Source of the DNA: Prorocentrum cordatum
Lineage: Eukaryota; Sar; Dinophyceae; Prorocentrales; Prorocentraceae
Direction: 5' to 3'
Assembly (NCBI GenBank): GCA_963575745.1
Contig: CAUYUJ010001314.1
Location: 2,501-66,500 of the forward strand
DNA: 64,000 nucleotides
Within the stretch, counting starts at the first letter, position 1. Every line of letters begins with the position of its first letter. Below are positions 29,730 through 64,000 of the stretch, piece by piece. The notes under the pieces are model-generated. The model saw nothing but the letters and a program-made list of their open reading frames with translations, did no database searches and had not been told where the DNA came from. The translations under genes and the position numbers were made by a program.

Positions 29730-29972
29730 TCCAGAATCCCTCGCAGCAGGTCGTTTGAGCCGGCAGCGTGTCCGGGAGAGCTTCCGGCAAGCGTCCACGC
29801 GTCCCCGCACGCGTGCAGGCACGCGTGGAAGCGTTTCTGGCAGCGTTTCGGAAGCGCTGCCGGGGGGCCCCGCAGAGCCCCAGAAGAGCTTCACGCGAGC
29901 TTCCGTGGGCTTCCCAGGACGGTTTTCCGGTGTGTGTTTTCTTTGCTCTCCGGGTTTTGGACGCTACCAAGT
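29730..29972 (+). mobile_element. HEL-C fragment (3' part)
   Basis: Begins inside the family (CTGCCGGTCCAGAATC) and includes the central GCACGCGTGCAGGCACGCG palindrome region. It ends with the family 3' end CTCTCCGGGTTTTGGACGC.ACCAAGT. A HEL-A copy starts directly after the terminal T. Confidence 0.8.
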
Positions 29973-30983
29973 AACTCGTAGAGCTTCCCTGAGCAAGTTA
30001 TGGCTAGAAGCTAAGAGTAATTCCGGCGCGCCGGAGAGCTAGTTGGCAAGAAGAATCTCGACGGAACTTTTGATGACTTTTGCGCGGTGGAAAATTTTGT
30101 TCTCAAAATTTGACAATTCGTTAGAGCTCTAGTATTTTTTTCTGTGATATTCGATCTTATTCCCGCTCGCCATCTTGATCTCAGTTCGATCGGGTGAATA
30201 TTACTATCGAAAAGCACTCTGGCGGGATCGGCCGTTTTGAGTCATCTTGATATGCGCTGACGGTTTTCTGAACATAACTCGAGCTCTAGGGCAGCTATCG
30301 AGCTGGTAAGCACAGCTAATGCATGCAGAATGATCAGGCGCGTTCGCTTGTTGAACCTAGAGGTCTGAATTCGGTCTGCTAGCCGAGCTAGGTCCGCAAA
30401 CCTGTTCGTATTATTCGAGTCATCTTGACAGAAACTCTCGATTTTCTGCACTTAACTCGAGCTGAAGGACAGCTACAGAGCTGATAGTTACAGGCACCAA
30501 TTCAGAATCATCAGTTGCGTTTGTCTGTCGATCCAGAGCTCTGAACTCGGTCTGCTGCCCGATCTAGAATCGCGAAACTATTCGTATCGTTCGAGTCGCT
30601 TGCGAGATGCTGTCGGTTATCTGGACTTAACTCGGGCAGCAGGGGGGCTGAATGGCTAGTAATCACAGGAATCGATTTGAAGATATCAGGCGCGTCCGCC
30701 TATCGAATACAGAGCTCTGAACTCTGTCTGCTGCCCGAACTAGGTCTGGTTCGAGTCATTCTGAGAGGTGCTGTCGGTTTTCTGCAGTTAACTCGGGCTG
30801 CAGGGGGGCTGCAGGGCTGGTAATGACAGGAGTCGATTTGCAGACAGCAGACGAGCCGTCTGTCGCATTCAGAGGTCAAAAACTATGCACTATGAGTCAG
30901 ATTGTTGGTAAGTGATGTCTGTTTTCTCAACTAAGTCGAGTTAGGAAGCTCTACGAGTCTCCCGGCGGTAACCAAGGTTGACG
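29973..30983 (+). mobile_element. HEL-A copy with truncated 3' hairpin
   Basis: 5' end AACTCGTAGAGCTTCC, 5' hairpin module, conserved region (CCCGCTCGCCATCTTGATC about 30157-30175), 178-bp monomers, then GGAAGCTCTACGAGT and only the left half of the terminal hairpin. At 30983 the hairpin loop is fused to an inverted HEL-A 5' module. Confidence 0.8.
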
Positions 30984-31185
30984 ATTTTTCGAGCCAACTA
31001 GCCTGCCAGCGTTTTCGAATTACTCTTGAGCTTTGCCGCTGCGCTCTCAGGGAAGCTCTACGAGTCAATCCGCTAGCTCATCGATGCCGAAGAGCCCTAG
31101 GAGGTACGAGGTATTACTCTTACGCTTCCAGCAACTCGCTTAGGGAAGCTCTACGAGTTACCTCGGTGACGAGACTTTTTGTTTT
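30984..31185 (-). mobile_element. Inverted block of HEL-A and HEL-B 5' modules
   Basis: Reverse complements of HEL-A 5' ends (ending GGGAAGCTCTACGAGT at about 31067 and 31158) and of a HEL-B 5' module (CTCATCGATGCCGAAGAG at about 31078-31095). The block lies head-to-head with the truncated HEL-A tail at 30983, so an inversion or template switch is needed to explain it. Confidence 0.7.
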
Positions 31186-32066
31186 ACCTTGCAGAGCTCT
31201 TCGGCAAGAGGAGCTAAGAGGACTTCGGGCGCAGGGTGGAGCTAGTTGGCCGACCCGATCGTAAGAGACGATGTGTTAACTTTCGGTCGGTAATCTTTGT
31301 GCGAAATTTGAAAATTTGTTTTGGGAACTAGTATTTTTCTCACCTGTAGTGGGTTATGCCGCGTCTGCCATTAAATTCTGAGATATGTAGCTGCAATATT
31401 ACTATTAAAAGACTTGCTGGAACCGACGGTCGTTTCGGGTTATCTTCACACGTGTTAACGGTTTTCTGTACTTATCTCGAGATTTAGGACAGCTACAGCG
31501 CTGATGCTTACAGAAACCGATTCAGAATCTTGAGGCGTGTTCGTCTCTTCCATCGAAAGCTCTGAACTCGGTCTGCTGCTCGAGCTAGATCCGCAAATCT
31601 ATTCGTAATCTTCGAGTCATTTTGAGAAGTACTGTTCGTTTTCTGCACTTAACTGACGATCTAGAATAGCTACAGAGCTAGTACGCACATGATACGATTC
31701 TGTATCATTAGGTGCGTTCTTCTGTTGCACCGCGCGGTCTGAACTCGGTCTGCTACCCGAGCTAGATGCAAACCTATTCGTATTCTTTAAGTTCTCTTTG
31801 CAGGCGCTCTCGGTCTTCTGTACTTAACTGAAGCTGTAGCAGAGTTGCAGAGCTACAACGCACAGAAACCGATCCAGAATGATCAGGGGCGTTCGGCTGG
31901 AGCATCTAGAGCTCTGAACACAGTCTGCTCCCCGAGCTAGATCCGCAACACTATTCGTATACGATCGATTTTCGTTGGAACTCAAGGTGTTTTTTTCTAT
32001 TGAATTCGAGCGAGAAAAGAGCTCTACGAGGCTCCGGTGGTAACCTGGTTGACGGTTTACCGCAGT
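31186..32066 (+). mobile_element. HEL-B long form carrying 178-bp monomers
   Basis: HEL-B 5' module (GAGCTCTTCGGCAAGAGG), HEL-B body to about 31430, then 178-bp-type monomers normally found in HEL-A, and a HEL-B-like 3' end (AAGAGCTCTACGAGG, GGCGGTAACCTGG, shortened tail CCGCAGT). A similar chimera is at 56135-56642, so this is a subfamily, not a chance join. Confidence 0.7.
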
Positions 32067-32318
32067 TTGGAGAGCCTTGGGGGGCTCCCTGAAGCGCCGC
32101 GGAAGCAGTTCCAGAAACGCTTCCGTGCGTGCCTGCACGCGTGCAGGCACGCGTGGAGGCTTGCCGGCATCTCTTCCGGACCAGCTGCCGGGTGAAAAAA
32201 GCTGCTGCGAGGATCGTGGAGCAAAGAACAGGAGCTCCTGGCGGGCACGACCACCGTCCGGTTACGAATCTTAAACCCTGTAGCTCTCAGCGAGTTCTCC
32301 GGGAATTCCTCGCTCCTT
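32067..32318 (-). mobile_element. HEL-C copy, inverted, partial
   Basis: Reverse complement of HEL-C with the central palindrome (GTGCCTGCACGCGTGCAGGC, about 32130-32149), up to CTCTCAGCGAGTTCTCCGGG near its 5' end. The family 3' end is missing on the left side. Confidence 0.75.
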
Positions 32319-33533
32319 GACTCGTAGAGCTTCCCTGAGAGCGCAGCGGCGAAGCTTAAGAGTAATTCGAAAGCGCTGGCAGGCTAGTTGGCTCGAAAAA
32401 TCTTGTCTGAACTTTTCACAACTTTGGCTCGGTTGAAAATTTTGTTCTCGAAATTCAACAATTCGTTTGAGCTCTAGTATTTTTTCCCGTGATATTCGAT
32501 CTTATTCCCGCTCGCCATCTTGATCTCAGCTCGATCGGGTGGGTATTACTATTGAAAAGCGTCGTGGCGGGATAGGCCGTTTCGAGTCATCTTGTTACGC
32601 GATGTCGGTTTTCTCAAGATAACTCGAGCTTTAGGACAGCTACAGAGCCGGTAAGCACAGCTAATCGATTCAGAATGATCAGGCGCGTTCGCCTGTTGAA
32701 CCCAGGGGTCTGAATTCGGTCTGCTAGCCGAGCTAGGTGCGTTAACTTATTCGTATTATTCGAGTCATCTTGATAGGCGCTCTGGATTTTCTGTACTTAA
32801 CTCGAGCTACGGCACAGCTACAGAGCTGATACGTACAGAATATGATTCAGAACCATCAGTGGCCGTTCTCTGTTGAAACCAGAGCTCTGAACTCGGTTTG
32901 TTGCTCGATCTAATATCGTGATACTATTCGTATTGTTCGAGTCGCTTGCGAGATGCTGTCGGTTCTCAGCTCTTAACTCGGGCTGTAAGGGGGCTGGATG
33001 GCTGGTAATCACTGGAATCGATTCGGAGACATCAGGCGCGTTCGCCTGCGGAATCCAGAGCTCCGAACTCGGTCGGTTGTCCGAACTAGGTTCGTAATCT
33101 TATTCGTATTGTTCGAGTTATTCTGAGAGGTGCTGCCGGTTTCCTGCACTTAACTCGGCTGTAGGGGCTGCAGGGCTGGTAATTACAGGGATCGATTCAG
33201 AAATATCAGACGCGTCCGCCTTTCGCATGCAGATGTCTGAACTCGGTCTGATACTCGAACTAGGTTTGCCAAACTATTCGTATTCTTCGAGTCATCTTGA
33301 GAGGTGCTGTCGATTTACGCACGTAAACTCGGGCTGTAGGAGAGCTACAGAGCTCGTACAGAAGACAATCTAGGAGCATCGGGGGCGCTCGGCTGTTGCA
33401 TCCGAGAGGTCTCAAATTGTCTGGGCTGAAAAATTATTTTTTCTGTGTATTTTCTTTCGACATTATATGGTCAGGAAGCTCTACGAGTCCCCCGGCGGTA
33501 AGAAAGGTTGACGGTTTACCGCCGGCGCCCAGT
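32319..33533 (+). mobile_element. HEL-A copy, full length
   Basis: 1215 bp from GACTCGTAGAGCTTCC to CGCCCAGT, with conserved 5' region, about five 178-bp-type monomers, GGAAGCTCTACGAGT and the terminal hairpin. No protein-coding frame. Confidence 0.85.
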
Positions 33534-33551
33534 GCCGAAGAGCTCTACAAG

Positions 33552-34121: not shown

Positions 34122-35091
34122 CTTTGTTTGCCCGGGCCGGGTGGGTCAACTAGCTGCACCCCGCGCCGGAATTCCTCTAGCTCATCGATGCCGAAGAGCT
34201 CTACGAGGTATCACGTAATAGTGTTCAGATGTCGACCAGCAAGCTCAAGTGATATTGGTTTTGAAATAATTTTACATAATATTTCAATATAGTACGAATG
34301 TTTCTCATCGAGCTTTGAAATTGAATGCTGCTCGAGATCTTAGAATTCAAAAAGGCCGACGAGCCATAACTTACCTCGTGTGCACAGCAATACTGGGTTA
34401 ATGAAGCTCAGCTCTGGCGAAATGCACGAGACCATTATCATTTCGAAAAATATCGCCTGACGGCTGACGGTTCCTCCACGTTTGTTAATCGTAATAGTGC
34501 AGCTACAGACCTGAGGATTTGACAGGCGAATGCGCCACAATCGACTCCACGTTACACAAATATTTCGGAAAGCTTCCATCAGCGAGTTATTGCTGGAAAC
34601 GTGAGAGTAATTCCGGGGCGCTGGAGAGCGAGTTGGCAAGAAAAATGTCGACGGACCTTTTGATAACTTCTGGTCGGTTTAAAATACCTCGTAGAGCTAT
34701 TTGGCATCGATGGGCTAGAGGAATTTGGGCGCGGGGTGCACCTAGTTGGCCGACCCGGCCCCGACTGACAATGTGCGAACTTTCGGTGGGTTGGACGAAC
34801 TTCGTGAAAAATTTGAACATTCGTTTGGAGATCGGATATTTTTCGCACCTGTATTGGGTCATGCCGCGTTCGCCAGTCGAATTCTCAGGTTTGTAGCTGC
34901 AGTATTACTATCAAAACACTTGGCGAAACCGTTTGTGGATGACAACTTAAAAATGTACATTTTTTAAGTTTTCACCTCGCGCATGACAGAGCCTCTCCCA
35001 CGTGTTTCGAGCAGCGCCGTGCGAAAAAAAAAAAAAAAGGTACGAGGCTCCTGGCGGTAACCTGGTTGACGGTTTACCGCCGGCTCCCAGT
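34122..35091. mobile_element. Mosaic of HEL-B/HEL-A remnants
   Basis: Includes an inverted HEL-B 5' module (34163-34208), a HEL-A 5' module (about 34570-34670), a plus-strand HEL-B body (about 34686-34960) and a terminal hairpin with CTCCCAGT end (35045-35091). Intervening sequence (34210-34560) is unlike the families. No gene recognised. Confidence 0.6.
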
Positions 35092-36303: not shown

Positions 36304-36850
36304 TTCACCTCGTAGTCCTCTACGGCATCGATGAGCGAGAGGAATTCCGGCGCGGGGTGGAGCTAGTTGGTCGATCCGACCAGAAAGGACAAAGTGACAA
36401 TTTCTTCCCGGAGAGACCGCTGAGAGCTAGAGGGTTTAAGATCAGAAGCCGGGCGGTGGTGGTGCCCGCCAGGAGCTCTTCCGCGGCGCTCCAGAATCCC
36501 CGCAGGGGTTCGTTCGGCCCGGCAGCTGGTCCAGGGGAGCTTCCGGAAAGCTTCCACGCGTGCCTGCACGCGCGCAGGCACGCATGGAAATGTTTGTGGC
36601 AGCGCACCAGCAGCGCCGCAGAGGAGCTTCCCAGAGCTCTCCAGGAATATCCCCGAAGGGTCTCTTCGCTCTCCGGGTTCTGGACGCTACCAAGTGGGTG
36701 GTTTTGCGAATATGTCAAAGATATTTGACCATTTATTTTGAGAAAGCAGATTTTTCGCACCCGCAGAGGGCTATCAGAGCCCATGCGTCTTAACATGAGC
36801 TCGGTAGGCGCACTTTTACTACCAAAGCATTCAGAGAAACCAACTTTATA
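36304..36850 (+). mobile_element. HEL-B interrupted by a HEL-C
   Basis: The HEL-B left part (36304-36402, ending GTGACAATTT) and right part (36696 on, starting GGGTGGTTTTGCGAAT) rejoin at the same body position as intact HEL-B copies. HEL-C (about 36403-36695) sits between them, from CTTCCCGGAGAG to GGACGCTACCAAGT. The 3' end of the HEL-B is eroded near 36850. Confidence 0.8.
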
Positions 36851-37306
36851 CTTTGTAGAGCTCTTCAGCAAGATGAGCTGAAAGGAATTCGGGCGCAGAG
36901 TGGGGCTAATTCGCCGACCCGACCCTAAGAGACAATGTTCCCGGAGAGCTCTCTGAGAGCTAGAGGGTTTCAGATTAGAAGCCGGACGGCGGTGGTGCCC
37001 GCCAGCAGCCCATCTTCGCCGCTCCAGAATCCCCGCAGCGACTTGTAAAACGTCGCAGCGGGTCCGGGGGCGCTTCGGGCACGCGTCCACGCGTGCCTGC
37101 ACGCGTGCAGGCACGCGTGGGGGCGTTCCCGGCAGCGCCTCAGAAGCGCGGCAGGGGGGCCCCCAGAGCCCCGGAAGCGCTTCGCGAGAGCGTCCGAGGG
37201 CCCGCCAGGAAAGCTTTCCGGCGTGTATTCTCTTTGCTCTCTGCTCTCCGGGTTTTGGACGCTACCAGTGGTAACTTTGGGTCGGTTTTGCAATCTTTCT
37301 GCAACA
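36851..37306 (+). mobile_element. HEL-B interrupted by an intact HEL-C (36939-37269)
   Basis: Left HEL-B ends GACAATGT at 36938 and the right part resumes GGTAACTTTGGG at 37270, giving the family sequence when joined. The HEL-C between them is 331 bp, TCCCGGAGAGCTCTCTGAG to GACGCTACCAGT, with a perfect 34-bp central palindrome at 37087-37120. This junction shows insertion after T where the next base is G, so T-before is required but T-after is not. Confidence 0.85.
37087..37120. repeat. 34-bp perfect palindrome in HEL-C
   Basis: CCACGCGTGCCTGCACG followed by its exact reverse complement, no spacer. Shorter versions occur in almost every HEL-C (for example the 20-bp TGCCTGCACGCGTGCAGGCA at 52143-52162). 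Conservation of the palindrome while flanks drift suggests a structural role or repeated repair by cruciform-mediated conversion. Confidence 0.9.
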
Positions 37307-39057: not shown

Positions 39058-39132
39058 TCCCGGGGAGCTCGCTGAGAGCTAAAGGGTTTGAGATTAGAAG
39101 CCAGACGGTGGTGGTGCCCGCCAGCAGCACAT

Positions 39133-40247
39133 GACTCGTAGAGCTTCCCGAAGCTAGTTGCTGGAAGCTTAAGAGTAATTCCGGCGCGCTGGAGAGCTAG
39201 TTGGCAAGAAAAATCTCGACGGAACTTTTGCTGACTTTTGGTCGGTTGAAAATTTCGTTCTCGAAATTTCACCATTCGTTGGAGCTCTAGTATTTTTTCC
39301 CGTGATATTCGATCTCATTCCCGCTCGCCATCTTGATCTGAGCTCGATCGGGCAACTTTGAAGGCCAAAAAGCACTCTGGCGGGATCGTTCGTTTCGAGT
39401 CATCTTGAGAGTAGACGCGTTCGCCTGTTGAATCCAGAGGTCTGAACTCGGTATAGCCGAGCTAGGTCCGCAAACCTATTCGAATTATTCGAGTCATCTT
39501 GACAGAAACTCTCGGTATTTTCTACTTAACTCGAGCTGTAGGGGAGCTATAGAGCTGGTAAGCACGCCTATCGCATCCAGAATGATTAGGCGCGTTCGCC
39601 TGTTCAATCCAGAGGTCCGAACTCGGTCTGTCAGTCGAGCTCGGTTCGCAAACCGATTCGTATTATTCGAGTGATCCTGACAGAAACTCTTGGTTTTCTG
39701 TGCTTTACTCGAGCTGACAGCTACAGAGCTGATATTTACAGGACCAGATTGAGCATCGGCAGTTGCGCTTGTCTGCCGAATCCAGAGCTCTGAACTCGGT
39801 CTGCTGCCCGATCATTGGTCGAGTCATCTTGAGAATTGCTTTCGGTTTTCTTCACTTAACTTGCGCTGAGAGGGGGCTATAGTGCTGGTAATCACTGAAT
39901 CGAATCGGCGACATCAGACGCGCTCCCCTGCGGAATCCAGAGCTCCGAACTCGGTCTACTGCCCGAACTAGGTTCGCAAAACTATTGTATTGTTCGAGTC
40001 ATCCTGAGAGATGCTGTTGGTTTTCTGCACTGACCTCGGGCTGTAGGGGGGCTGCGGGGCTGGTAATGACAGGAGTCGATTCGCAGACATCAGACGCGTC
40101 CGCTTGTCGCATTCAGAGGTCAACAAATATTCACTATGAGTCAGAATGTTGGTAGGTGCTGTCGGTTTTCTCAACTTAAGTCGAGCTTGGAAGCTCTACG
40201 AGTTCCCCGCGGTAACCAAGGTTGACGGTTTACCGCCGGCGCCCAGT
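39133..40247 (+). mobile_element. HEL-A copy, full length, inside HEL-C
   Basis: 1115 bp, GACTCGTAGAGCTTCCC to GCGCCCAGT. Five to six monomers of several types. 3' section with GGAAGCTCTACGAGT and hairpin (one C/G slip in the left stem, CCCCGCGGTAA). Confidence 0.85.
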
Positions 40248-40463: not shown

Positions 40464-41238
40464 ACCTCGTAGAGCTCTTCGGCAAAGAGCTAAGAGGAAT
40501 TCGGGCGCAGGGTGAAGCTAGTTGGCCGGCCCGACGATGTGGTAACCTGGAGTCGGTGTTTACCTCGTAGAGCTCTTCGTCATCGATGAGCTAGAGGAAT
40601 TCGTGCGCGGGGTGGAGCTAGTTGGTCGACCCGGCCATAACGGACAATGTGACAACTTTTGCGTGGTTTTGCGAATATTTGAAAGATGTTCGACCATTTA
40701 TTTTGAGAAAGCAGATTTTTCGCACCTGAAGACGACTATGAGGGCCTCTGCGTCTTGATATGAACTCTCTAGATGCAATTTTACTATCAAAACACTTGGC
40801 GAAACCAACTTCATGTCGACATTAAAAAAAATCATGTTTTCTCTTTTTCGAGAAATGCTTCCAGAAGCCTTCTCTTTTGATGCTCAGCAATCTTACGCGT
40901 GCAAGGAGCTCTACGAGGTTCCCGGCGGTGACCAGGTTGACGGTTCACCGCCGGCGCCAGTTTCACTTTATGCAAAATTTTGAAGTTCGTTTTTAGAAGT
41001 GAGATTTTTATTCCCTGTAGTAAGCTATGGCGCACCTGCTGGTAAATTCTCGATGTCTCTAGGTCCAGCATTGCTATCAAAACACTTGGAGGAACTCACT
41101 GTATGAAAACCGAAAAATCTTCATTTTTGCTCTCGCTTCAGAAGCTTCCTTCACGTGTTCGGAGGAGCGCTGTGTAAGAAGAGAGCTCTACGAGGTGCCC
41201 GGCGGCGACTAGGTTGACGGTTCACCGCCGGCGCCAGT
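40464..41238 (+). mobile_element. HEL-B inside HEL-C, itself split by HEL-B
   Basis: Left part 40464-40561, right part 40972-41238 (about 365 bp joined). It starts after GTGTGTGT in HEL-C and ends GCGCCAGT; the HEL-C then resumes TCTCTTTGC, so the empty site is T/T, as at 52280 in an uninterrupted HEL-C. Confidence 0.85.
40562..40971 (+). mobile_element. HEL-B copy, intact (410 bp)
   Basis: 5' end ACCTCGTAGAGCTCTT; 3' section AGGAGCTCTACGAGGT, hairpin CCGGCGGTGA/TCACCGCCGG and end GCGCCAGT. Inserted in the preceding HEL-B. No coding frame. Confidence 0.88.
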
Positions 41239-42887: not shown

Positions 42888-43070
42888 ACCTCGTAGAGCT
42901 CTTCGGCATCGATGAGCTAGAGGGATTCCGGCGCGGGTTGCAGCTAGTGCCTCGTAGAGCTCTTCGCCACCGATGAGCTTGAGGAATTCTGGCGCGGGGT
43001 GGAGCTAGTACCTCGTAGAGCTTTTCGGCATCGATGAGCTAGAGGAATTCCGGCGCGGGGTGCAGCTAGT
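42888..43070 (+). mobile_element. Three tandem 61-bp HEL-B 5' modules
   Basis: 42888-42948, 42949-43009 and 43010-43070, each 61 bp, from (A/G)CCTCGTAGAGCT to AGCTAGT. They are explained as the 5' pieces of three HEL-B copies, each interrupted at AGCTAGT/TGG. The 3' remainders of two lie at 49564-49899 and 49900-50228: 61+336 and 61+329 bp give full family length. Confidence 0.85.
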
Positions 43071-43433: not shown

Positions 43434-44839
43434 AACTCGTAGAGCTTCCCTTAGCTAGTTATAGCTGGAAGCTAAGAGTAATTCCGGCGCGCCCCACAGC
43501 TAGTTGGCTCGAAAAAAAAGAACTGAACTTTTCACAACGTTTGGTCAGTTGAAAATTTCGTTCTCGAAATTTGACCATTCGTTAGAGCTCTAGTATTTTT
43601 TCCCGTGATATTCGATCTTATTCCCGCTCGCCATCTTGATCTCAGCTCGATCGGGTAACTTTGAAGGCCCAAAAGCACACTGGCGGGAACGGCCGTTTCG
43701 AGTCATCTTGATACGCGTTGTCGGTATTTTGTACTTAACTCTAGCTGTAGGACAGCTACAGAGCTGGTAAGCACAGCTATCGCACCCAGAATCTTCAGGC
43801 GCGTTCGTCTGTTAAATCCAGAGGTCTGAACTCGGTCTGCTAGCCGAGCTAGGTCCGCAAACCTATTCGTATTATTCGAGTCAACTTGATACGCGTTGTC
43901 GGTATTTTCTACTTAACTCGAGCTTCAGGGCAGTTACAGTGCTGGTAAGCACACCTATCGCACTCAGAATCATCAGGCGCGTTCGCCTGTTGAATCCAGA
44001 GGTCTGAACTCGGTCTGCTAGCCGAGCTAGGTCCGCAAATCTGTTCGTATTATTCGAGTGAACTTGATACGCGTTGTCGGTATTTTCTACTTAACTCGAG
44101 CTTTAGGGCAGTTACAGTGCTGGTAAGCACACCTATCGCACTGAGAATCATCAGGCGCGTTCGCCTGTTGAATCCATAGGTCTGAACTCGGTCTGCTAGC
44201 CGAGCTAGGTCCGCAAACCTATTCGTATTATTCGAGTCAACTCGATACGCGTTGTCGGTATTTTCTACTCAACTCGAGCTGTAGGGCAGCTGCAGTGCTG
44301 GTAAGCACACCTATCGCACTCAGAATGATCAGGCGCGTTCGCCTCTTCAATCTATAAGTCTGAACTCGGTCTGCTAGCCGAGCTAGGTCCGCAAACCTAT
44401 CGTATTGTTCGAGTCAACTTGATACGCGTGGTCGGTATTTTTGTACTTAATTCGAGATGAAGGGCAGCTGCAGTGCTGGTAAGCACACCCATCGCACTCA
44501 GAATCATCAGGCGCGTTCGTCTGCCTGCTGGATCCAGAGCTTCGAACTCGGTCTGCTGCCCAAATTAGATCGACACAACTTCTATATTGTTCGAGTCATT
44601 CTCAAAAGTGCTGTCGCTTTTCTGCACCTACCTCGGCCTGAAGGGGGGCGGCAGGACTGGTAATGACAGAAGTCGATTCGCAGGCATCAGACGCGTCCGC
44701 CTGTCGCATTCAGAGGTCAACAAATATTCACTATAAGTCGGAATGTTGAATGCGCGGTTTTCTCAACTAACGTCAAGGTAGGAAGCTCTACGAGTCCCCG
44801 GCGGTAACCAAGGTTGACGGTTTACCGCCGGCGCCCAGT
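43434..44839 (+). mobile_element. Inner HEL-A, full length (1406 bp)
   Basis: AACTCGTAGAGCTTCCC to CGCCCAGT, inserted in the outer HEL-A at GCTAGT/TGGC. It holds the most regular satellite stretch (CGTATT at 43868, 44046, 44224, 44401). Confidence 0.9.
43690..44780 (+). repeat. 178-bp satellite monomers (best array)
   Basis: Spacing of 178, 178 and 177 bp. Each monomer has GAGTCA.CTTGA, ACTTAACTCGAGCTGTAGG, CAGGCGCGTTCGCCTGTTGA, CTCGGTCTGCTAGCCGAG and CTATTCGTATTATTC. Three short inverted repeats lie in every unit: CTGTAG/CTACAG, CAGGCG/CGCCTG and CTCGG/CCGAG. Monomer types differ in order (5'-proximal, middle, and a 3'-proximal type with GATTTACGCACGTAACTCGG), so the array has polarity inside the element. 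Confidence 0.9.
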
Positions 44840-49146: not shown

Positions 49147-49563
49147 CAAAGGTTGACGGTTTACCGCCGGCGCCCAGTCGTAGAGCTCTTCGGCGTCGAG
49201 GAGCTAGAGGAATTCGGGCGCGGGGTGGAGCTAGTTGGCCGACCCGGCTCCGACGGACAATGTGGTAACCTGGGGTCGGTTTTTCGAAGATGGCGAGAGA
49301 TTTTGAAATTTGTTTTGCAAATTTGAATTTTTATTCTATGCAGTGAATCATGACGCTTTCGATGGTGCAAATCTGAGGGCTCTAGCTGCAGTATTTTGAT
49401 CAAAACACTACGGGGAACCAACATTGTGCACGACCGAAAAAAATATTCCTGAAGTTTTCAAGCTGTCATTCAGCAGCGTTTTTTGCTCTTTGAATTCGCC
49501 TATCGGGAGCTCTACGAGGGTCCCGGCGGTAACCTGGTTGACGGTTTACCGCCGGCTCCCAGT

Positions 49564-50527: not shown

Positions 50528-51952
50528 ACCTCGTAGAGCTCTTCGGCATCGATGAGCTAGAGGAATTCCGGCGCGGGGTGGAGCTAGTTGGCCCAACCGG
50601 CCGAGGCGGACAATGTGACAACTTAACTCGTAGAGCTTCCCGTAGCAAGTTATTGCTGGAAGCTAAGAGTAATTCCGGCGCGCCCCAGAGCTAGTTGGCT
50701 TGAAAAATCTCGACTGAACTTTTGACAATTTTTGGTCGGTTGAAAATTTTGTTCTCGAAATTTGACAACTCGTTAGAGCTCTAGTATTTTTTCCCGTGAT
50801 ATTCGATCTTATTCCCGCTCGCCATCTTGATCTCAGCTCGATCGGGTGAATATTTCTATCGAAAAGCACTGTGGCGGGATCGGCCGTTTCGAGTCATCTT
50901 GATACACGGTAACGGTTTTCTCAAGATAACTCGACTTTCAGGGCAGCTACAGAGCTGGTCAGCGCAGCTTATGGACCCAGAATGATCAGACGCGTTCGCC
51001 TGTTGAATCCAGAGGTCTGATCTCGGTCTGCTAGCCGAGCTAGGTGCGCAAACCTATTCGTATTATTCGAGTCATCTTGACAGGCGCTCTCGGTTTTCTG
51101 TACTCAACTCGAGCTGTAGGACAGCTACAGAGCTGATATTTGCAGGAACTGATTCAGAATCATCAGTTGCGTTTGTTTGTCGAATCCAGAGCGCTGAACT
51201 CGGTTTCCTGCCCGATCTAGAATCACAAAATTATTCGTATTGGTCGAGTCATCTTGAGAAGTGCTATCGGTTTTCTTCACTCAACTCGCGCTGAGGGGGG
51301 GGGCAGTGCTTGTTGTCACAGAAATCGATTTAAAGAGGTCAGGCGTGTCCGCCTGCCGAATCCAGATCTCGGAACTCGGTCTGCTGCCCGAACTAGGTCC
51401 GCATAATTATTGTATTGTTCGAGTCATCCTGAGAGGTGCTGTCGGGTTTCCGCACTTAACTCGGGCTGTAGGGGTGGTAATGAGGGGTCGATTCGCAGAC
51501 ATCAGACGCGTCCGCCTGTTGCATTCAGAGGTCAAAAAATATTCACTATGAGTCGGAATGTTGGTAGGTGCTGTCGGTTGTCTCAACTGAAGTCGAGCTA
51601 GGAAGCTCTACGAGTCCCCGGCGGTAACCAAGGTTGACGGTTTACCGCCAGCAGCCCAGTTTGGGTGGTTTTGCAAAACTTTGAAAGATATTTGACAATT
51701 CATTTTGAGAAAGCAGATTTTTACTCCGAGCATTGACATATAAGCTCTGTTCCCTGAGCAGCTCAGCCCTCTAGAGCCATTTTGAGTACCAGTTCACTTG
51801 AAGGAACCAACTTCACGTTGACTCCGAAACATCTCAACTTGAAGTTTTTGTAGAAAAGCTCTCAGAAGCTCTCGCTTTGTTCTCACGGATGCAAGGAGCT
51901 CTACGAGGTTCCCGGCGGGTGACCAGGTTGACGGTTCACCGCCGGCGCCAGT
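50528..51952 (+). mobile_element. HEL-B interrupted by a HEL-A (50625-51660)
   Basis: Left 50528-50624 (ends GTGACAACTT), right 51661-51952 (starts TTGGGTGGTTTTGC), 389 bp joined, equal to intact copies. The inserted HEL-A is 1036 bp, AACTCGTAGAGCTTCCC to CAGCAGCCCAGT. The empty site CAACTT/TTGGG is T/T, and the two HEL-B pieces join with no base lost or gained. Confidence 0.92.
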
Positions 51953-51987: not shown

Positions 51988-52312
51988 TCCCGGAGAGCTC
52001 GCTGAGAGCTAAAGGGTCTAAGATTAGAAGCCGGACGGTGGTGGTGCCCGCCAGCAGCCCATCTTCGCCGGTCCACGATCCTCGCAGCGACTCGCCTGAG
52101 CCGGCAGCGTGTCCGGGAGAGCTTCCGGCGAGCGTCTAGGAATGCCTGCACGCGTGCAGGCACGCGTGGAAGCGTTCCTGGCGCCGCTTCGGAAGCGCTG
52201 CCGGGGAGCCCCCAGAGCCCCAGAGGAGCATCACGCGCGCTTCCGTGGGCTTGCCAGAAAGGTTTTCCGGTGTGTGTTCTCTTTGCTCTCCGGGTTTTGG
52301 ACGCTACCAAGT
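51988..52312 (+). mobile_element. HEL-C copy, intact (325 bp)
   Basis: TCCCGGAGAGCTCGCTGAG to CTTTGCTCTCCGGGTTTTGG.ACGCTACCAAGT. CCCGGAGAGC and GCTCTCCGGG are a 10-bp inverted pair; the 3' one is followed by an 18-bp tail with a weak TTGG/CCAA hairpin. The 20-bp palindrome is at 52143-52162. A leftover tail of another HEL-C (51967-51987) precedes it. Confidence 0.87.
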
Positions 52313-53598
52313 GACTCGTAGAGCTTCCCCAGGCTAGTTGCTGGAAGCTTAAGAGTAATTCCGGCGCGCTGGAGAGCTAGTCGGCTCGAAAAAAAAGAAC
52401 TGAAATTTTCACAACTTTTGGTTGGTTGAAAATTTGGTTCTCGAAATTCAACAATTCGTTTGTGCTCTAGTATTTTTTCCCGTGATATTCGATCTCATTC
52501 CCGCTCGCCATCTTGATCTCAGCTCGATCGGGTAATTTTTACTGCCAAAAAGGACACTGGCGGGATCGGCCGTTTCGAGTCATCTTGATACGCGTTGTCG
52601 GTATTTTGTTCTTAACCCGAGCTGTAGAGCAGCTACAGAGCTGGTAAGCACACCTATCGCATTCAGAATTTCCCAGGCGCGTTCGCTCGTTGAATCCAGA
52701 GGTCTGAACTCGGTCTGCTAGCAGAGCTAGGTCCGCAATCTTAGTCGTATTATTCGAGTCGTCTTGACAGACGCTCTTGGTTTTCTCTACTTAACTCGAG
52801 CTGTAGGGCAGCTACAGAGCTGGTAAGCACATCTATGGCATCCAGAATTATCAGGCGCGTTCGCCTGTTGAATCCAGAGGTCTGAACTCGGTCTGCTAGC
52901 CGAGCTAGGTCCGCAAACCTATTCGTATTCTTCGAGTCGTCTTGACAGACGCTCTCGGTTTTCTGTACTTAACTCGAGCTGTAGGGCAGCTTTAGGGCTC
53001 ACTGTCACAGACATTGATGGGGAATCATCAGTCGCGTTCGTCTATTGAACCGAGAGCTCTGAACTCGGCCTGCTGCCCGAGCTAGGTTCGCGAAACTATT
53101 CGTATTGTCCGAATCATCTTGAGAAGTGCTCTCAACTTTCTGCACTCAACTCGTGCTGGGGGAGGGCCACAGTGCTGCGGGTCACAGATATCGATTTGCA
53201 CACATCAGGCGCGTCTGTTGGTCGATTCCAGAGCTCAGAACTCGGTCTGCTGCTCGAACTAGGTCCGCGAAACTATTCTTTTATTAGAGTCGATACTGTC
53301 GGTTTTCTGCACTTAACTCGGGCTGTAGGGGAGCTGCAGGGCTGGGAATCACAGGAGTCCATTCGCAGACATCAGACGCGTCCGCCTGTCGCATTCAGAG
53401 GTCTGAACTCGGTTCGATACTCGAACTGGGTTGCGAAACTGTTCGTTTTTTTCGTCAGAGTTATCTTGAGAGCTCTGAATTCGCTTGGGCTGAAAAACTA
53501 GTCGTTCTCTGGAATTTTTTACACATTATATTCTGTCAGGAAGCTCTACGAGTCCCCCGGTGGTAACAAAGGTTGACGGTTTACCGCCGGCGCCCAGT
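52313..53598 (+). mobile_element. HEL-A copy, full length (1286 bp)
   Basis: GACTCGTAGAGCTTCCCC to CGCCCAGT, with six monomer-type units ending in the 3'-proximal type. It starts directly after the T of the HEL-C end. Confidence 0.88.
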
Positions 53599-53787
53599 AC
53601 CTCGTAGAGCTCTTCGGCATCGATAAGCTAGAGGAATTCCGGCGCGGGGTGCAGCTAGTACCTCGTAGAGCTCGTCGCACCTTACAGAGCTCTTCGGCAT
53701 CGATGAGCTAGAAGAATTCCGGCGTGGTGGAGCTAGTAACTCGTAGAGCTTCCCTTAGCAAATTATTGCTGGAAGCTTAAGGGTAAT
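53599..53787 (+). mobile_element. Stacked HEL-B and HEL-A 5' modules
   Basis: HEL-B module 53599-53659 (61 bp), a HEL-B module with an internal duplication 53660-53737, and a HEL-A module 53738-53787 (50 bp, ending AGGGTAAT). These are again 5' pieces split at AGCTAGT and GTAAT. A 15-bp TGGCCGACC remainder is at 54907-54921. Confidence 0.8.
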
Positions 53788-54906
53788 AACTCGTAGAGCT
53801 TCCCTTAGCAAGTTATTGCTGCAAGCTTAAGAGTAATTCCGGGGAGCTGGAGAGCTAGTTGGCAAGAAAAATCTCGACGGACCTTTTGCTGACTTTTGGT
53901 CGGTTGAAAATTTTGTTCTCAAAATTTGACCATTCGTTAGAGCTCTAGTATTTTTTCCCATGATATTCGATCTTATTCCCGCTCGCCATCTTGATCTCAG
54001 CTCGATCGGGTAACTTTGAAGGCCAAAAAGCAGGCAGGCGGGAACGGCCGTTTCGAGTCATCTTGATACGCGCTGTCGGTTTTCTCAAGATAACTCGAGC
54101 TTCAGGACAACTACAGAGCTGGTCAGCACAGCTAATGCATTCAGAATGATCAGGCGCGTTCGCCTGTTGAATCGAGAGGTCTGAACTCGGTCTGCTAGCC
54201 GAGCTAGGGTCGCAAACCTATTCGTATTATTCGAGTCATTGTAGCAGACGCTCTCGGTTTTTCGTACTTAACTCGATCTGTAGGGCAGCCACAGAGCTGA
54301 TAATCACAGAAATCGATTGAGAATTATCAGGCGCATTCGTCTGTTGAATCAAGAGCTCTGAACTCGGCCTGCTCCCCGAGCTAGGTTCGCGAACCTATTG
54401 GTATTGTTCGAGCCATCTTGAGAAGTGCTCTCGGTTTTCTGTACTTAAATCGTGCTGGGGCAGGCTACAGTGCTGCTGGTCACAGGAATCGATTTCGAGA
54501 TATCAGGCGCGTCCGTTCGTCGAACCGAGAGCTCGGAACTCGGTCTGCTGCTCGAACGAGATCCGCGAAACTGTTGTATTATTCGAGTCATCCTGAGAGG
54601 TACTCTCGGTTTTCTGCACTTAACTCAGGCTGTATGGGGGGCTGCAGAGCTGGTAATCACAGGAATCGATCCGCAGACATCAGACGCGTCCGCCTGTCGC
54701 ATTCAGAGGTCTGAACTCGGTTTCATACTCGAGCTCGATTGGAAAACTGTTCGTTTGTTTTGTTAGAGTCATCTTGAGAGGTCTATAATCGCTTGGGCTG
54801 AAAAACTAGTCGTTCTCTGAAATTCTTTTCCACATTATATATTGTCAGGAAGCTCTACGAGTCCCCCGGCGGTAAGAAAGGTTGACGGTTTACCGCCGGC
54901 GCCCAG
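53788..54906 (+). mobile_element. HEL-A copy, full length (1119 bp), reference copy
   Basis: 5' inverted repeat ACTCGTAGAGCTTCC at 53789-53803, partner GGAAGCTCTACGAGT at 54848-54862 (15/15), hairpin stem CCGGCGGTAA 54866-54875 / TTACCGCCGG 54890-54899 with a 14-nt loop, then CGCCCAGT. The inverted repeat is terminal on the left but 44 bp from the end on the right, the asymmetric arrangement of Helitron2/Helentron elements. Confidence 0.9.
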
Positions 54907-54922
54907 TTGGCCGACCGCGCAT

Positions 54923-56134
54923 GACTCGTAGAGCTTCCCTAAGCTAGTTGCTGGAAGCTTAAGAGTAATTCCGGCGCGCTGGAGAGCTAGTTGGCAAGAA
55001 AAATCTCGACTGACCTTTTGCTGACTTTTGGTCGGTTGAAAATTTTGTTCTCGAAATTTGATTATTCGTTAGAGCTCTAGTATTTTTTCCCGTGATATTC
55101 GATCTTATTCCCGCTCGCCATCTTGATCTCAGCTCGATCGGGTGAATATTACTATCGAAAAGCACTCTGGCGGGATCGGCCGTTTTGAGTCATCTTGATA
55201 CGCGCTGACGGTTTTCTGAACATAACTCGAGCTTTAGGATAGCTACAGAGCTGATAAGCACAGCTAATCGATGTAGAATGATTAGGCGCGTTCGCCTGAT
55301 GAAACCAGAGGTCTGATTTCGGTCTGTTAGCCGAGCTAGATTCGCAAACCTATTCGTATTATTCGAGGCATCAGAAACTCTCGGTATTTTGTGCTTAACT
55401 CGAGCTGTAGGACAGCTACAGAGCTGATATTTACAGAACCCGATCCAGAATCATCAGATGCGTTTGTCTGTCGAATCCAGAGCTCTGAACTCAGTCTGCT
55501 GCCCGATCTGGAATCGCACAACTAGTCGTATTGGTCGAGTTATCTTGAGAAGTGCTCACGGTTTTCTTCACTCAACTCGCGCTGAGCGAGGCTACAGTTC
55601 TGGTAGTCAGAGGCATCGATTTCAAGACATCAGGCGCATCCGTCTGTCGAATCTAGAGCTCTGAACTCGGTCCGCTGCCCGATCTGGAATCGCAGAACTA
55701 TTCGTATTGTTCGAGTCATCTTCAGAAGTGCTCTCGGTTTCCTTCACTCGCGCTGAGAGGGGCTAGAGTGCTGGTCGTCACAGGAATCGATTTCAAGACA
55801 TCAGGTGCGTTCGCCTATCGAATCGAGAGCTCGGAACTCGGTCTGCTGCCCGAATTAGGTCTGCGAAACTATTGTATTGTCTGAGTCATCCTGAGAGGTG
55901 CTGTTGGTTTTCTGCAATTAACTCGCGCTGTAGGGGGGCTGCAGGGCTGGTAATGACAGAAGTCGATTCGCAGACACCAGACGCGTTCGTCTGTCGCATT
56001 GAGAAGTCAAAACATATTCACTATAAGTCGGAATGTTGGTAGGTGCTTTCCGTTTTCTCAACTTAAGTCGAGCTAGGAAGCTCTACGAGTTCCCGGCGGT
56101 AACTAAGGTTGGCGGTTTACCGCCGGCGCCCAGT
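54923..56134 (+). mobile_element. HEL-A copy, full length (1212 bp)
   Basis: GACTCGTAGAGCTTCCC to CGCCCAGT; six monomer-type units; loop variant GGTTGGCGG. Followed by a HEL-B remainder that starts TAAGAGACAATGTGG. Confidence 0.87.
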
Positions 56135-57702: not shown

Positions 57703-58881
57703 TCGGGGTCGCTGGAGAGCTAGTTGGCAAGAAAAATCTCGACGCACCTTTTGGTGACTTTTGCTCGATTGAAAATAACTCGTACAGCTTCCCTTAGCAA
57801 GGTGTTGCTGGAAGCTCAAGAGTAATTCCGGGGCGCTGGAGAGCTAGTTGGCAAGAAAAATCTCAACGGACCTTTTGCTCACTTTTGGTCGGTTGAAAAT
57901 TTTGTTCTCAAAAGTTGAACATTCGTTAGAGCTCTAGTATTTTTCCCATGATATTCGATCATATTTCTGCTCGCCATCTTAATATCAGCTCGATCGGGTA
58001 CATTTTACTGCCAAAAAGCCGGCAGGCGGGATCAGCCGTTTCGAGTCATCTTGATACGCGCTGTCGGTTGTATCCAGATAACTCCAGCTTCAGGACAGCT
58101 ACAGAGCTGATGAGCACAGCTAATCGATACAGAGTGATCAGGCGCGTTCGTCTGTTGAAGCCATAGGTCTGAACTCGGTCTGCTAGCCGAGCTAGGTCCG
58201 CAAACCTATTCGTATTATTCGAGTCATCTTCACAGACGCTCTCGGTTTCTGTACATAACTCGAGCTGCAGGACAGCTACGTAGCTGATACGTACAGAATC
58301 TGATTGCGAATCATCAGTGGCCGTTGTCTGTTGAATCCAGAGCTCTGAACTCGGTCTGCTGCCCGATCTAGAATTGCGAAACTATTCGTATTGTTCGGGT
58401 CGCTTGCGAGATGCTGTCGGTTCTCTGCACTTAACTCGGGCTGTAGGGGGGCTGCATGGCTGGTAATTACTGGAATCGATTCGGAGACATCAGGCGCGTT
58501 CGCCTGCAGAATCCAGAGCTCCGAACTCGGTCTGTTGCCCGAACTAGGTCCGCGAAACTATTCGTATTGTTCGAGTCATCCTGAGAGGTGCTGTCGGTTT
58601 CCTGCACTTAACTCGACAGCAGGGCAGGGGTGGTAATCACAGGGATCGATTCAGAGACATGAGACGCGTTCGCCTGTCGCATGCAGAGATCTGAACTCGG
58701 TCTGATACTCGAACTAGGTTTGCTATTCGTATTGTTCGAGTCATCTTGAGAGGTGCTGTCGATTTACGCACGTAACTCGGGCTGTGGGAGAGCTACAGAG
58801 CTCGTGCAGAAGACAATCTTTACGCACGTATCTCGGGCTATAGGAGAGCTACAGAGCTCGTACAGAAGAGAATCTAGAAGC
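57703..58881 (+). mobile_element. HEL-A remainder with a second HEL-A inserted at 57777
   Basis: 57703-57776 is HEL-A sequence up to TTGAAAAT. At 57777 a new HEL-A starts (AACTCGTACAGCTTCC), again after T where the family continues with T. The new copy runs through monomers and a 54-bp duplicated 3'-proximal section (58760-58870) and breaks off after AGAAGCA at 58881. Confidence 0.8.
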
Positions 58882-59112
58882 AGTTTTGGCGGCGTCGACC
58901 GTGTGGGCAGGGCGTCCCGCTGCAGGAGTCGTTCGGCCGTCCGCGCCAGGGCGCCCAACGCCTGCCCTCATGGGCGTCGGTCTGTCCCCGCGGAAGGATG
59001 CCGTTGTTCCAGGGCGTGCGCGCAGGCATCTGGCCTCCTGCTCTTGCCGCTGGGGGTGCTATTGTGCTCTTATCCCGCCCTCAGACGCCCTGGTGCACTG
59101 CAGTGTGCTGTC
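58882..59112. other. Unique 231-bp GC-rich segment within the element array
   Basis: It replaces the usual 3' section of HEL-A and runs straight into a HEL-B-type hairpin (CCCGGTGGTAACCTGG). It matches none of the three families and is GC-richer than its surroundings. Plus frames are open (one reads SPRKDAVVPGRARRHLASCS), but no family is recognised. It could be captured host sequence, as rolling-circle elements often carry, or filler DNA. Confidence 0.55.
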
Positions 59113-59383
59113 TCCCGGTGGTAACCTGGTTGACGGTTTACCGCCGGCTCCCAGTACCTTGTAGAGCTCTTCGACATCGATGAGCTAGAGCAATTCCGGC
59201 GCGGGCTGGAGCTAGTTGGCCCAGCCGGCCGAGGCGGACAATCACTCGTAGAGCTTCCCTTAGCAAGTTATTGCTGGAAGCTTAAGAGTAATTCCGGGGC
59301 GCTGGAGAGCTATATATGTTGTCAGGAAGCTCTACGAGTCCCCGGCGGTAAGAAAGGTTGACGGTTTACCGCCGGCGCCCAGT
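59113..59383 (+). mobile_element. HEL-B hairpin, HEL-B 5' part and minimal HEL-A
   Basis: Terminal hairpin with CTCCCAGT end (59155); HEL-B 5' part 59156-59241; then a 142-bp deletion derivative of HEL-A (59242-59383) in which the 5' module (to GAGAGCTA) is joined directly to TATGTTGTCAGGAAGCTCTA and the hairpin. It shows that the two ends can exist without the satellite. Confidence 0.78.
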
Positions 59384-61673: not shown

Positions 61674-62247
61674 TGGCTCACCCGGCTGAGGCGGACAATG
61701 TGACAACTTTTGGTTGGTTTTGCGATTTTTTAAAAGATATTTGACAATTTGTTTTGAGAAAGCAGATTTTTGCTCGAAGCATTGACATATTAACTTTGTT
61801 TCCTGGGCAGCTCAGCCTTCTAGAACCTTTTTTAGTATCAGTTCACTTGGAGGAACCGACTTCAGGTTAACTCTGAAAAATCTTCAAGTTTTTGTAGAAA
61901 AGCTTCCAGAAGCTCTCGCTTTGATCCCGGGGCGAACAATGTGGTGACCTGGGGTCGGTTTTTCGAAGATGGCGAGAGATTTTGAAATTCGTTTTGCAAA
62001 TTTGAATTTTTATTCTATGCAGTGAAATCATGGCGCTTCGATGGTGCAATTCTCAGGGCCCTAGCTGCATTATTCCGATTAAAAGACTTGGGGGACCACC
62101 ATTGTACGACCGAAAAAAAATATGTCTTTATATTTGAAACTAGTATGCAGAAGCTTTTTCTGCTGTTATCTCGGAACCGAGCTGGTCTATGCAGAGCTCT
62201 ACGAGGGTCCCGGCGGTAACCAAGTTGACGGTTCACCGCCGGTTCCC
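61674..62247 (+). mobile_element. HEL-B remainders, two
   Basis: First remainder 61674-61926 (TGGCTCACCCGGC ... GCTTTGATCC, no 3' end); second from about 61927 (CCGGGGCGAACAATGTGG) to a hairpin with shortened end CCGGTTCCC at 62247. No genes. Confidence 0.68.
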
Positions 62248-63167
62248 TTCCGGCGCGCTGGAGAGCTAGTTGGCAAGAAAAATCTCGACGGACCTTTAGG
62301 TGACTTTTGGTCGGTTGAAAATTTCATTCTCGAAATTCAACAATTCGTTTGAGCTCTAGTACTTTTTCCATGATATTCGATTTCATTCCCGTTCGTCATC
62401 TTGATCTCAGCTCGATCGGGTACCTTTCACTGCCAAAAAGCACACGTGCGGAATTGGTTGTTTCGAGTCATCTTGATGCGCGGTGACGGTTTCCTCAAGA
62501 TACCTCGAGTTTCAGGACAGCTACAGAGCTGGTAAACACAGCTAATCGATTCAGAATGATCAGGCGCGTTCGCCTGTTGAACCCAGAGGTCTGAACTCGG
62601 TCTGCTAGTCGAGCTTTGTCCGCAAACCTATTCGTATTATTCGAGTCATCTTGACAGACGGTCATCCTGAGAGGTGCTGTCGGTTTCCTGCACTTAACTC
62701 GGGCTGTAGGGGGCTGCATGGCTGGTAATTGCTGGAATCGATTCGAAGAAATCAGGTGCGTCCGGCTTTCAATTCCAGAGCTCCGAACTCGGTCTGCTGC
62801 TCGAGGTAGGTCCGCGAAATTATTCGTATTGTTCGAGTCATCCTGAGAGGTGCCCTCGGTTTTCTGCTCTTAACTCGGGCTGTAGGGGGGCTGCAGGGCT
62901 TGCAATCACAGGCATCGATCCAGTTGCCAAACTATTCGAATTGTTCGAGGCATCTTGAGAGGTGCTGTCAATTTACGCACGTAGCTCGGGCTGTAGGAGA
63001 GCTACAGAGAAGACAATCCAGAAGCACTTGGGGCGTTCGGCTGTTGCATCCGAGAGGTCTGAAATTGCTTGGGCTGAATTTTTTTTTTTTTTCAGAGTAT
63101 TTTTTTCGACATTATATGTTGTCAGGAAGCTCTACGAGTTGTTAACAGTTTACCGCTGCCGCCCAGT
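62248..63167 (+). mobile_element. HEL-A copy, 5' end missing, 3' hairpin degraded
   Basis: Starts TTCCGGCGCGCTGGAGAGC and has the conserved region, monomers and GGAAGCTCTACGAGT. The hairpin is reduced to GTTAACAG/TTACCGCTGC before GCCCAGT. Confidence 0.78.
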
Positions 63168-63502
63168 TGGTCGACCCGACCAGAAAGGAGGAAGTGGTGA
63201 CTTTGGATCGGTTTTGCGCAGATTTGAAAGATATTTGACCATTCATTTTGAGAAAGCGGATTTTTACGCCGAGCATCGGCATATGAACTCCTGACAGCAG
63301 CTCAGCTCTGCCGACGATGCATTTTCTTGAGAGTTGACTTCCCGGAACTGAGCGAATATCAACATCAAAAAAATCGAAATGAAGATTTCCAAAAAATCTA
63401 TATTTCTTCACTCTACTCCGATTCTCAGCACTCTTACCAGTGTAAGAAGCTCTACGAGGTTCCCGGCGGTGACTAGGTTGACGGTTCACCGCCGGCGCCA
63501 GT
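63168..63502 (+). mobile_element. HEL-B 3' remainder
   Basis: TGGTCGACCCGACC to GCGCCAGT, 335 bp, lacking the 61-bp 5' module; same split point as 49564 and 49900. Confidence 0.8.
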
Positions 63503-63897
63503 ACCTCGTAGAGCTCTTCGGCATCGATGAGCTATTGGAATTCCGGCGCAGGGTGGAGCTAGTTGGCCCACCTGGCCGAGGCGGACAATGTGACAACTTT
63601 TCCGTGGTTTTGCGAATATTTGAAAGATATATGACAATTTATTTTGAGGAACCAGATTTTTCGCACCTGTAGTGGGTTTTGCCGCGTCTGCCAGTAAAAT
63701 TTTCAGGTCTGTAGGTGCAGTATTACTATCAAAAGACTTGGGGGAACCGACGTTGAGTAAAAGCAGAAAAACGTGTTGTTTTGAGTTTTTCCTTTGCTCC
63801 AGAAGCTTTCTCTGCGTGTTCCGACGATCGCCATGCAAGAAAAGAGCTCTACGAGGTTCCCGGCGGTAACCAGGTTGACGGTTTACCGCCGGTTCCA
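63503..63897 (+). mobile_element. HEL-B copy, intact (395 bp), reference copy
   Basis: 5' ACCTCGTAGAGCTCTT (63503-63518) and AAGAGCTCTACGAGGT (63843-63858) are a perfect 16-bp inverted pair. The hairpin CCGGCGGTAA/TTACCGCCGG follows, with a shortened tail (GGTTCC) instead of GCGCCAGT. No coding frame longer than chance. Confidence 0.88.
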
Positions 63898-64000
63898 TTC
63901 AGGGGCGCTGGAGAGCTAGTTGGCAAGAAAATTCTCGACAGACATTTTGAGGACTTTTGGTCGGTTGAAAATTTGTCTTCGAAATTCAACCATTCGTTAA
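63898..64000 (+). mobile_element. HEL-A start, cut by window end
   Basis: GGGGCGCTGGAGAGCTAGTTGG and the conserved region continue past the window edge. Confidence 0.75.

Follow-up and report, generated by a model that had tools for sequence, protein, structure and literature searches.

The closest described counterparts of the elements reported here are the Helitron2-type rolling-circle transposons and their non-autonomous HINE/DINE-1 forms (statements about cited papers refer, here and below, to the accessible parts of those texts). In the Helitron2 anatomy, the 3′ copy of the inverted repeat lies about 20-30 bp from the element end (PMC3627910), and HINEs are defined by subterminal repeats of 12-15 bp, lying 38-60 bp from the 3′ end, a 3′ palindrome and a preference for TT (PMC4067079). 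The internal tandem repeats of oyster HINEs have monomers of 138-178 bp, and whole Helitrons can recur in tandem (PMC7492417). Here, we analyzed a 64,000-nt stretch of the dinoflagellate Prorocentrum cordatum genome (contig CAUYUJ010001314.1, hereafter C1314, positions 2501-66500), which is called the window and on whose own numbering coordinates are given. A domain running from near 29720 to the window end harbors three families of elements, termed A, B and C. Families A and B, and probably C, are likely to be non-autonomous Helitron2-type rolling-circle transposons, whose nested arrays would extend in one direction through strand-specific insertion into their own copies.

The elements share with Chlamydomonas Helitron-1N1_CRe an asymmetric repeat 0-2 bp from the 5′ end, a 5′ hairpin using this repeat, a 3′ hairpin and duplication-free insertion after T, but differ from it in that the 3′ repeat lies 42-46 bp instead of about 20-30 bp from the end, that targets are concentrated on the elements' own copies, and that one-way nested arrays are formed (PMC3627910). 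With the HINE/DINE-1 elements of oyster (Cg_HINE, PMC7492417) and mite (HINE-Mo, PMC4067079) they have in common the subterminal repeats, the 3′ palindrome, T-rich or TT insertion and internal tandem repeats; here, however, no link to an endonuclease-bearing Helentron is shown, and fixed self-target points are not described in the accessible parts of those two papers. FoHeli of Fusarium oxysporum likewise has Helitron2-type ends, reconstructed pre-insertion sites and one copy lying 2 bp from another, but its ends are ATTTT or CTCCTGT, its target is another one, and autonomous copies are known (PMC5148889). Limited searches of open papers yielded no description of one-way arrays formed by fixed-point self-insertion, and in the dinoflagellate-Helitron literature no paper titled on such arrays was found, which is not proof of their absence from print.

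Families A and B carry asymmetric inverted repeats and hairpins at both ends

The inverted repeat of family A reads ACTCGTAGAGCTTCC from element base 2, with its partner GGAAGCTCTACGAGT upstream of the last 42-46 nt, and the corresponding pair in family B is ACCTCGTAGAGCTC / GAGCTCTACGAGG(T). Helitron2 elements have an asymmetric inverted repeat of 8-15 bp, its 5′ copy 0-2 bp from the end and its 3′ copy upstream of the 3′ hairpin, and A and B conform to this plan; their subterminal repeats, the 3′ palindrome and the TT preference match the HINE definition given above. In the 10-bp stem of the 3′ hairpin (A and B), 95.8% of 240 cells were paired, compared with 22-57% when the partner was slid, and at one stem position both partners differ in 5 of 24 distinct rows, giving G-C in place of A-U. 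A 5′ hairpin, the other hallmark of Helitron2, was also found, in which the terminal repeat pairs with the sequence just downstream: in A, ACTC-gtag-AGCTTCC pairs with GGAAGCT-taa-GAGT (93.7% of 255 cells vs. 23-48% slid), and in B, CCTC-gtag-AGCTC pairs with GAGCT-a-GAGG (90.3% of 144 cells vs. 26-53% slid, a figure against which four alignment rows shifted by one column are counted). The folding z-scores of single copies were −2.61 for the A 5′ end, −2.04 for the B 5′ end and −3.37 for the B 3′ end.

A scan with end sequences of families A and B detected on the + strand of the window 16 A-type 5′ ends (one, at 34562, degenerate) and 18 B-type 5′ ends, the latter being 22 rows minus three A ends and one hairpin artefact. 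On the − strand, two A and two B 5′-end rows were located in an inverted block (30984-31159) and at 34149-34209. The 3′ hairpin was matched 33 times on the + strand, with 31 matches within ~33.5-63.9 kb and two more (30962 and 32034) cut short; seven − strand matches of this relaxed scan, scoring 32-39, overlap + hairpins and represent the palindrome read backwards. CAGT forms the terminus of 28 of 31 3′ ends in the window and of 74 of 77 across the six arrays described below. Tandem Repeats Finder identified 12 arrays of 175-178 bp in the window after overlapping rows were merged; by eye, these lie mostly upstream of A-type 3′ ends, and one (31510-31960) lies behind a B-type 5′ end. A plain tandem satellite was considered and rejected, the 178-bp repeats being internal to elements. 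An initial annotation of the stretch, made from the sequence alone, had described the repeat as terminal at the 5′ end and set back at the 3′ end, a 10-bp-stem 3′ hairpin with at least 31 copies between 33.5 and 63.9 kb, a CAGT end and internal 178-bp repeats in A, and these results bear out each of those features; the 5′ hairpin was absent from it. The domain is not made up solely of A and B, the two families that it named: family C also belongs to it, as do the inverted block (30984-31159), decayed pieces and a coding insert that extends from 47321 to about 49147.

Family C is GC-rich and about 290-330 bp long, starts with TCCCGGAGAGC and ends with GCTCTCCGGGTTTTGGACGCTACCAAGT, and has an inverted repeat of 10-11 bp that, read by eye, is set back about 18 bp from the 3′ end. 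It was found on both strands of the window, with 11 5′ ends on + and two on −, and with seven 3′-end rows on + (some poor) and one on −. The z-score for folding of the C 5′ end was only −0.62, and because folding does not support a 3′ hairpin (see below), C is only probably the same kind of element as A and B.

Insertion occurs after T without target-site duplication

In the empty-site test, the flanks of each plausible 5′/3′ pair were joined and an uninterrupted copy was sought elsewhere in the window. A looser first filter passed 291 of 512 candidate pairs, too many to be informative, and a stricter one gave 136 of 512 bridged by an uninterrupted copy, compared with 33, 27, 38, 25 and 28 of 512 at random positions; many of these 136 pairs join ends that belong to different sites of the same kind. 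Before the final fit the C junction was moved by one base, because a one-base gap had been seen there in the bridging test. After matches at other junctions were excluded, 108 of 496 pairs were supported and 20 were fitted without crossing, of which, by our own reading, eight were judged clean, one weak (the complete A at 54923-56134, + strand, 1212 bp, four empty-site matches), and 11 were dropped as ambiguous or gapped.

The eight clean cases, all on the + strand, are as follows: B 34686-35091 (complete, 406 bp, within an A copy; 14 empty sites), C 36406-36695 (290 bp; 6 empty sites), C 36939-37269 (331 bp; 4 empty sites), A 39133-40247 (complete, 1115 bp, within a C element, at T|C; 12 empty sites), B 40464-41238 (775 bp, enclosing another B at 40562-40961, at T|T; 6 empty sites), A 43434-44839 (complete, 1406 bp, within another A at GCTAGT|TGG, with 178-bp repeats at 43697-44557; 14 empty sites), A 50625-51660 (complete, 1036 bp, within a B copy at AACTT|TTGG; 6 empty sites) and A 57777-59383 (an interval with a rearranged interior; 14 empty sites). 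The first and the last of these, one B and one A element, lie at the identical base (AAAAT|TTTG) of two different A hosts. All eight showed a 0-bp duplication, with a junction free of gaps in the best or second-best empty site. The −1 flank base was T in 8/8 and the +1 base was T five times, G twice and C once; the two best empty copies for A 39133 have G or C at −1. Over all A/B ends, T precedes 30 of 33 5′ ends in the window and 54 of 60 across the six arrays, and T follows the 3′ end in 17 of 31 and 48 of 77, respectively. Thus, the absence of any duplication above 1 bp, as initially annotated, holds in the clean sites; 'always after T' and 'mostly T/T' are not borne out in that form.

Insertions recur at a few fixed points of the elements themselves

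The whole assembly (4,128,499,153 bases in 21,875 contigs) was searched for the exact 28-base A-type 3′ end, which gave 18,386 copies (9,499 forward and 8,887 reverse) and none for the reversed control. Among the first 100 of the 18,386 places, 87 of 93 contig neighbors were on the same strand, strands being taken by hand; random strand-specific T|T insertion in this domain would give ~0.60 on the same strand. No exact match of the 28-mer was found in prokaryote genome contigs and none of its 20-base core in viral contigs, records of the window's own genome being possibly excluded from both searches, and Rfam gave 0 matches.

Six arrays were then compared, namely the window and 10 kb from each of five contigs (L051, L052, L073, L074 and L075). 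They contain 77 3′ ends, which lie on one strand within each array (77/77), and 60 5′ ends, of which four, all in the window, are on the other strand. The right flank of each 3′ end was compared with the first 226 (A) or 170 (B) reference bases, allowing up to 5 mismatches in 18. Fifty of the 77 right flanks matched an inner point of an A/B reference and nine adjoin another 5′ end, so that the arrays read show a strong preference for a small set of fixed positions within the leading ~165 nt of A/B copies, or directly beside another element's end. The inner points were GCTAGT|TGG (11 in B and 8 in A), AGTAAT|TCC (11, and 2 one base on), GAAAAT|TTTG (4), CAACTT|TTGG (4), AAGAGT|AATT (3) and AGGAAT|TCC (2), in addition to five single-hit points, two of them within the first 7 bases and perhaps representing damaged 5′ ends. 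Inner matches were present in every array, at 16/30 in the window and at 7/10, 7/9, 4/8, 7/11 and 9/9 in the other five.

The reference base before the inner point was T at 50/50, and T|T was found at 40/50. Three points account for 30 of the 50 matches (P ~6e-25 for random TT, with 53 TT in the references and the three points picked post hoc). Moreover, 23 of the 50 inner targets follow AGT, compared with an AGT context at 5 of the 122 T of the references, and AGT precedes 23 of the 60 5′ ends. Among the left flanks of these 5′ ends, 26 match the A/B references and 34 do not, about eleven of the 34 being the 3′ end of another element. The 178-bp arrays of the window hold 19% of all its TT, yet 0 of 45 5′ and 0 of 37 3′ junctions; outside the window, two 3′ ends (L073 and L074) adjoin sequence that looks satellite-like by eye. 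The one-way order and the preference for fixed points on the elements' own copies are additions to the initial annotation.

A separate observation in the six arrays is that 3′ ends exceed 5′ ends (77 vs. 60). The excess recalls the 5′-truncated elements of Chlamydomonas (PMC3627910), and may stem from composites that stop at the first 3′ end encountered.

Insertions at the commonest points appear mostly separate or old

Polarized arrays could also result mainly when a few nested composites are multiplied by unequal crossing-over or segmental duplication, their order and junctions being copies of a few insertions, and recombination between direct repeats does keep orientation. The independence of insertions was assessed on 35 events at the two commonest sites, forming 595 pairs. 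Detectable homology on both sides was found in 149 pairs, but only six of the 595 reached 90% likeness across 150 bp or more on each side, as duplicates would, and some of these six join different sites. Furthermore, the GCTAGT| point has been struck by A, B and C elements, in both A and B hosts, which argues against copying of a few junctions. On the other side, the junction pair L074:2213 and L075:7671 is 100% and 95% alike on its two sides, and a 50-bp tandem duplication lies at 53737-53837. The median identity was 87.6% for the inserted elements and 92.6% for the right-side host remainders, a likeness by which duplication may explain part of the pattern. As the main source of the arrays we consider duplication unlikely, and the sequence comparison leads us to read the 35 events as mostly separate or old insertions, with a contribution from duplication.

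The target preference, the prevailing polarity and the absence of duplication are direct observations; for growth by self-insertion, we infer an enzyme, a choice of strand and a reason for the hot points as follows. A RepHel supplied in trans would recognize the 3′ hairpin and nick after CAGT, and the freed end would be joined to a target in which one strand has been nicked behind a T. The preferred targets, namely GCTAGT|TGG, AGTAAT|TCC, GAAAAT|TTTG, CAACTT|TTGG and the 3′ end CAGT|, lie on the elements' own top strand. Because they do so and a single strand would be read, each self-insertion would repeat the orientation of its host, and a unidirectional nested array would grow. A further proposal, which we put forward tentatively and hold to be open to considerable doubt, is that the transposase homes strand-specifically on its own family, at the A/B 5′ points and at existing 3′ ends whose AGT| is like the donor's end, and so might turn a dispersed transposon into satellite-like polarized domains on many contigs of this dinoflagellate genome.

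Several results weigh against reading A, B and C as self-inserting Helitron2-type elements, besides the likeness of host remainders noted above. Concerning the ends, 6 of 60 5′ ends lack a preceding T, and 18 of the 77 right flanks agree with none of the reference points. Covariation in the A 5′ hairpin was no greater than in shuffles (212/500 reach the observed value), so that its support is the pairing itself; for a single A 3′ end the gain in folding over shuffled sequences is only moderate (z −1.37), and a C 3′ hairpin is without folding support (z 0.29). Concerning strand order, the 77/77 figure is biased by the choice of arrays, the five outside the window having been taken from same-strand runs in the listed 28-mer places, and all six strand switches among the listed neighbors fall on one contig, C23, among its 19 neighbor pairs. 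In seven short pieces found by similarity to a C-rich part of the window (L002-L008), 3 of 9 3′ ends lie at an inner point (two in L002 and one in L006) and six do not, although one of the six misses GCTAGT|TGG by a single mismatch over the limit, and in L007 the two strands bear one 3′ end each. Finally, A/B/C end motifs were absent from 30 RepHel loci (±1.5 kb). Twelve downstream pieces of 5 kb contained stray hits only (a C5-like 12-mer in two and a CAGT-end-like 13-mer in four), and these 12 pieces and 20 more of 2.5 kb, searched with laxer limits, gave isolated hits of one to three mismatches, the inverted repeat never occurring jointly with the hairpin.

RepHel genes abound in the genome, with no A/B/C ends found in the loci read

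RepHel is plentiful in this genome: of 1,615 candidates for PF14214, 150 were scored and gave 151 matches, many of which fall within long open frames, and a PIF1 helicase was detected in 7/7 downstream open reading frames (ORFs) scanned. Mobilization in trans, as initially annotated, agrees with this abundance, but a RepHel partner of the kind that the annotation had suggested seeking, here with A, B or C ends, was not met in the 30 loci and 32 downstream pieces, a search that took in a small share of the 1,615 candidates. Several of the isolated lax hits lie inside the satellite of L044, L053 and L054. No blastn match was obtained for the domain against the RepHel loci, which indicates no simple sequence link to the A/B/C bodies, and right boundaries common to related RepHel copies were seen that have no A/B/C motif and are unlike A/B ends.

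The elements might instead be mobilized by another HUH enzyme, e.g. a Replitron-like Y1 nuclease, a family without a helicase, in place of a Helitron2 RepHel. The lack of an autonomous partner with these ends in the RepHel loci read would fit this, as would the 23 of 50 inner targets whose last bases, AGT, are those with which the element itself terminates, a likeness that recalls the target logic of IS200/IS605-type elements. However, an asymmetric repeat combined with a hairpin at either end is what has been published for Helitron2 (PMC3627910), and RepHel is the enzyme found in abundance here, in a survey confined to that family among HUH enzymes. We regard this explanation as improbable, and more so than duplication. 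A cut-and-paste terminal inverted repeat (TIR) transposon or miniature inverted-repeat transposable element family, which the paired inverted repeats of 10-15 bp might recall, is scarcely credible in view of the 3′ repeat lying 42-46 bp inside the end, the two hairpins and the eight empty sites without duplication. A TIR/DDE transposon was accordingly rejected as a class, neither repeats at both very ends nor target duplication being found. Canonical Helitron1, which shares the rolling-circle logic, the 3′ hairpin and the lack of duplication, was also rejected: its 5′ TC and 3′ CTRR ends and its A|T target are absent here, where 74 of 77 3′ ends are CAGT and T precedes 54 of 60 5′ ends.

The Helitron2/HINE-type anatomy and the duplication-free insertion put forward in the initial annotation are thus supported for A and B, and more fully through the 5′ hairpin. 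The strict term 'Helentron', meaning a RepHel fused to an AP-type endonuclease, is at most a provisional label for them; no endonuclease family was found at E up to 0.001 in seven downstream RepHel ORFs, which may or may not come from partners of the A/B/C elements.

The RepHel loci provided three further observations. Copies on different contigs (L014-L018, L024-L027, L037 and L038) are >99.5% identical over ~3.5 kb, a sign of recent spread or recent duplication of autonomous Helitrons. In L041 (C19677) and L050 (C2161), downstream of the Rep domains, two RepHel families have PIF1 helicase ORFs with a terminal deubiquitinase domain of the Josephin type (E 4e-8 and 9e-9); OTU and herpes-tegument-like deubiquitinases have been reported in Helitrons, with Josephin not mentioned in the accessible part of that report (PMC9741609). 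Between L047 and L072, a single RepHel family shows its blocks in swapped order at 99% identity, as after tandem duplication or circular permutation.

Other features of the domain and the window

Near the left edge of the domain, the end scan placed the 3′ end of a 5′-truncated C element at 29941-29972 (+), followed by an A element at 29973-30986 (+) whose 3′ hairpin is broken at about 30986, and by the inverted block (30984-31159, −), which carries A/B 5′-end stubs. The B-type 5′ end with the 175-bp repeats at 31510-31960 begins an interval (31186-32063) ending in a 3′ hairpin cut short; this and all the following features are on the + strand. A complete A of 1215 bp at 32319-33533 contains 176-bp repeats at 32639-33340. 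Three successive 61-bp B 5′ stubs, each cut at GCTAGT|, occupy 42888-43070. A complete C of 325 bp (51988-52312) has a complete A directly behind its 3′ end (52313-53598), a complete A of 1120 bp (53788-54907) stands behind a 50-bp A 5′ stub, and a complete B of 397 bp with the variant end CATT (63503-63899) lies directly behind another 3′ end.

The A element at 46246-49178 has its 3′ hairpin interrupted by the coding insert, which is probably a truncated retroelement; Pfam gave no match (E ≤ 0.001) for a 610-aa open frame that overlaps the insert. Outside the domain, open frames at 7577-14032 (−, 2152 aa) and 19072-20103 (−, 344 aa) encode reverse transcriptase domains, and three arrays far apart from one another (5361-5661, 14499-14983 and 25220-26006) share a 32/64-bp unit with the core TTTCGC(C/T)TGAGACATCCTC, which has no visible relation to A, B or C.

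Implications for Helitron target choice and genome growth

Target choice and final joining by Helitron-type elements leave few traces and are hard to study. Many insertions at one point, with uninterrupted copies as controls, provide a natural assay of the strand and the bases that the enzyme reads. In addition, the arrays suggest how a very large genome rich in repeats could grow and how the 178-bp satellite may spread.

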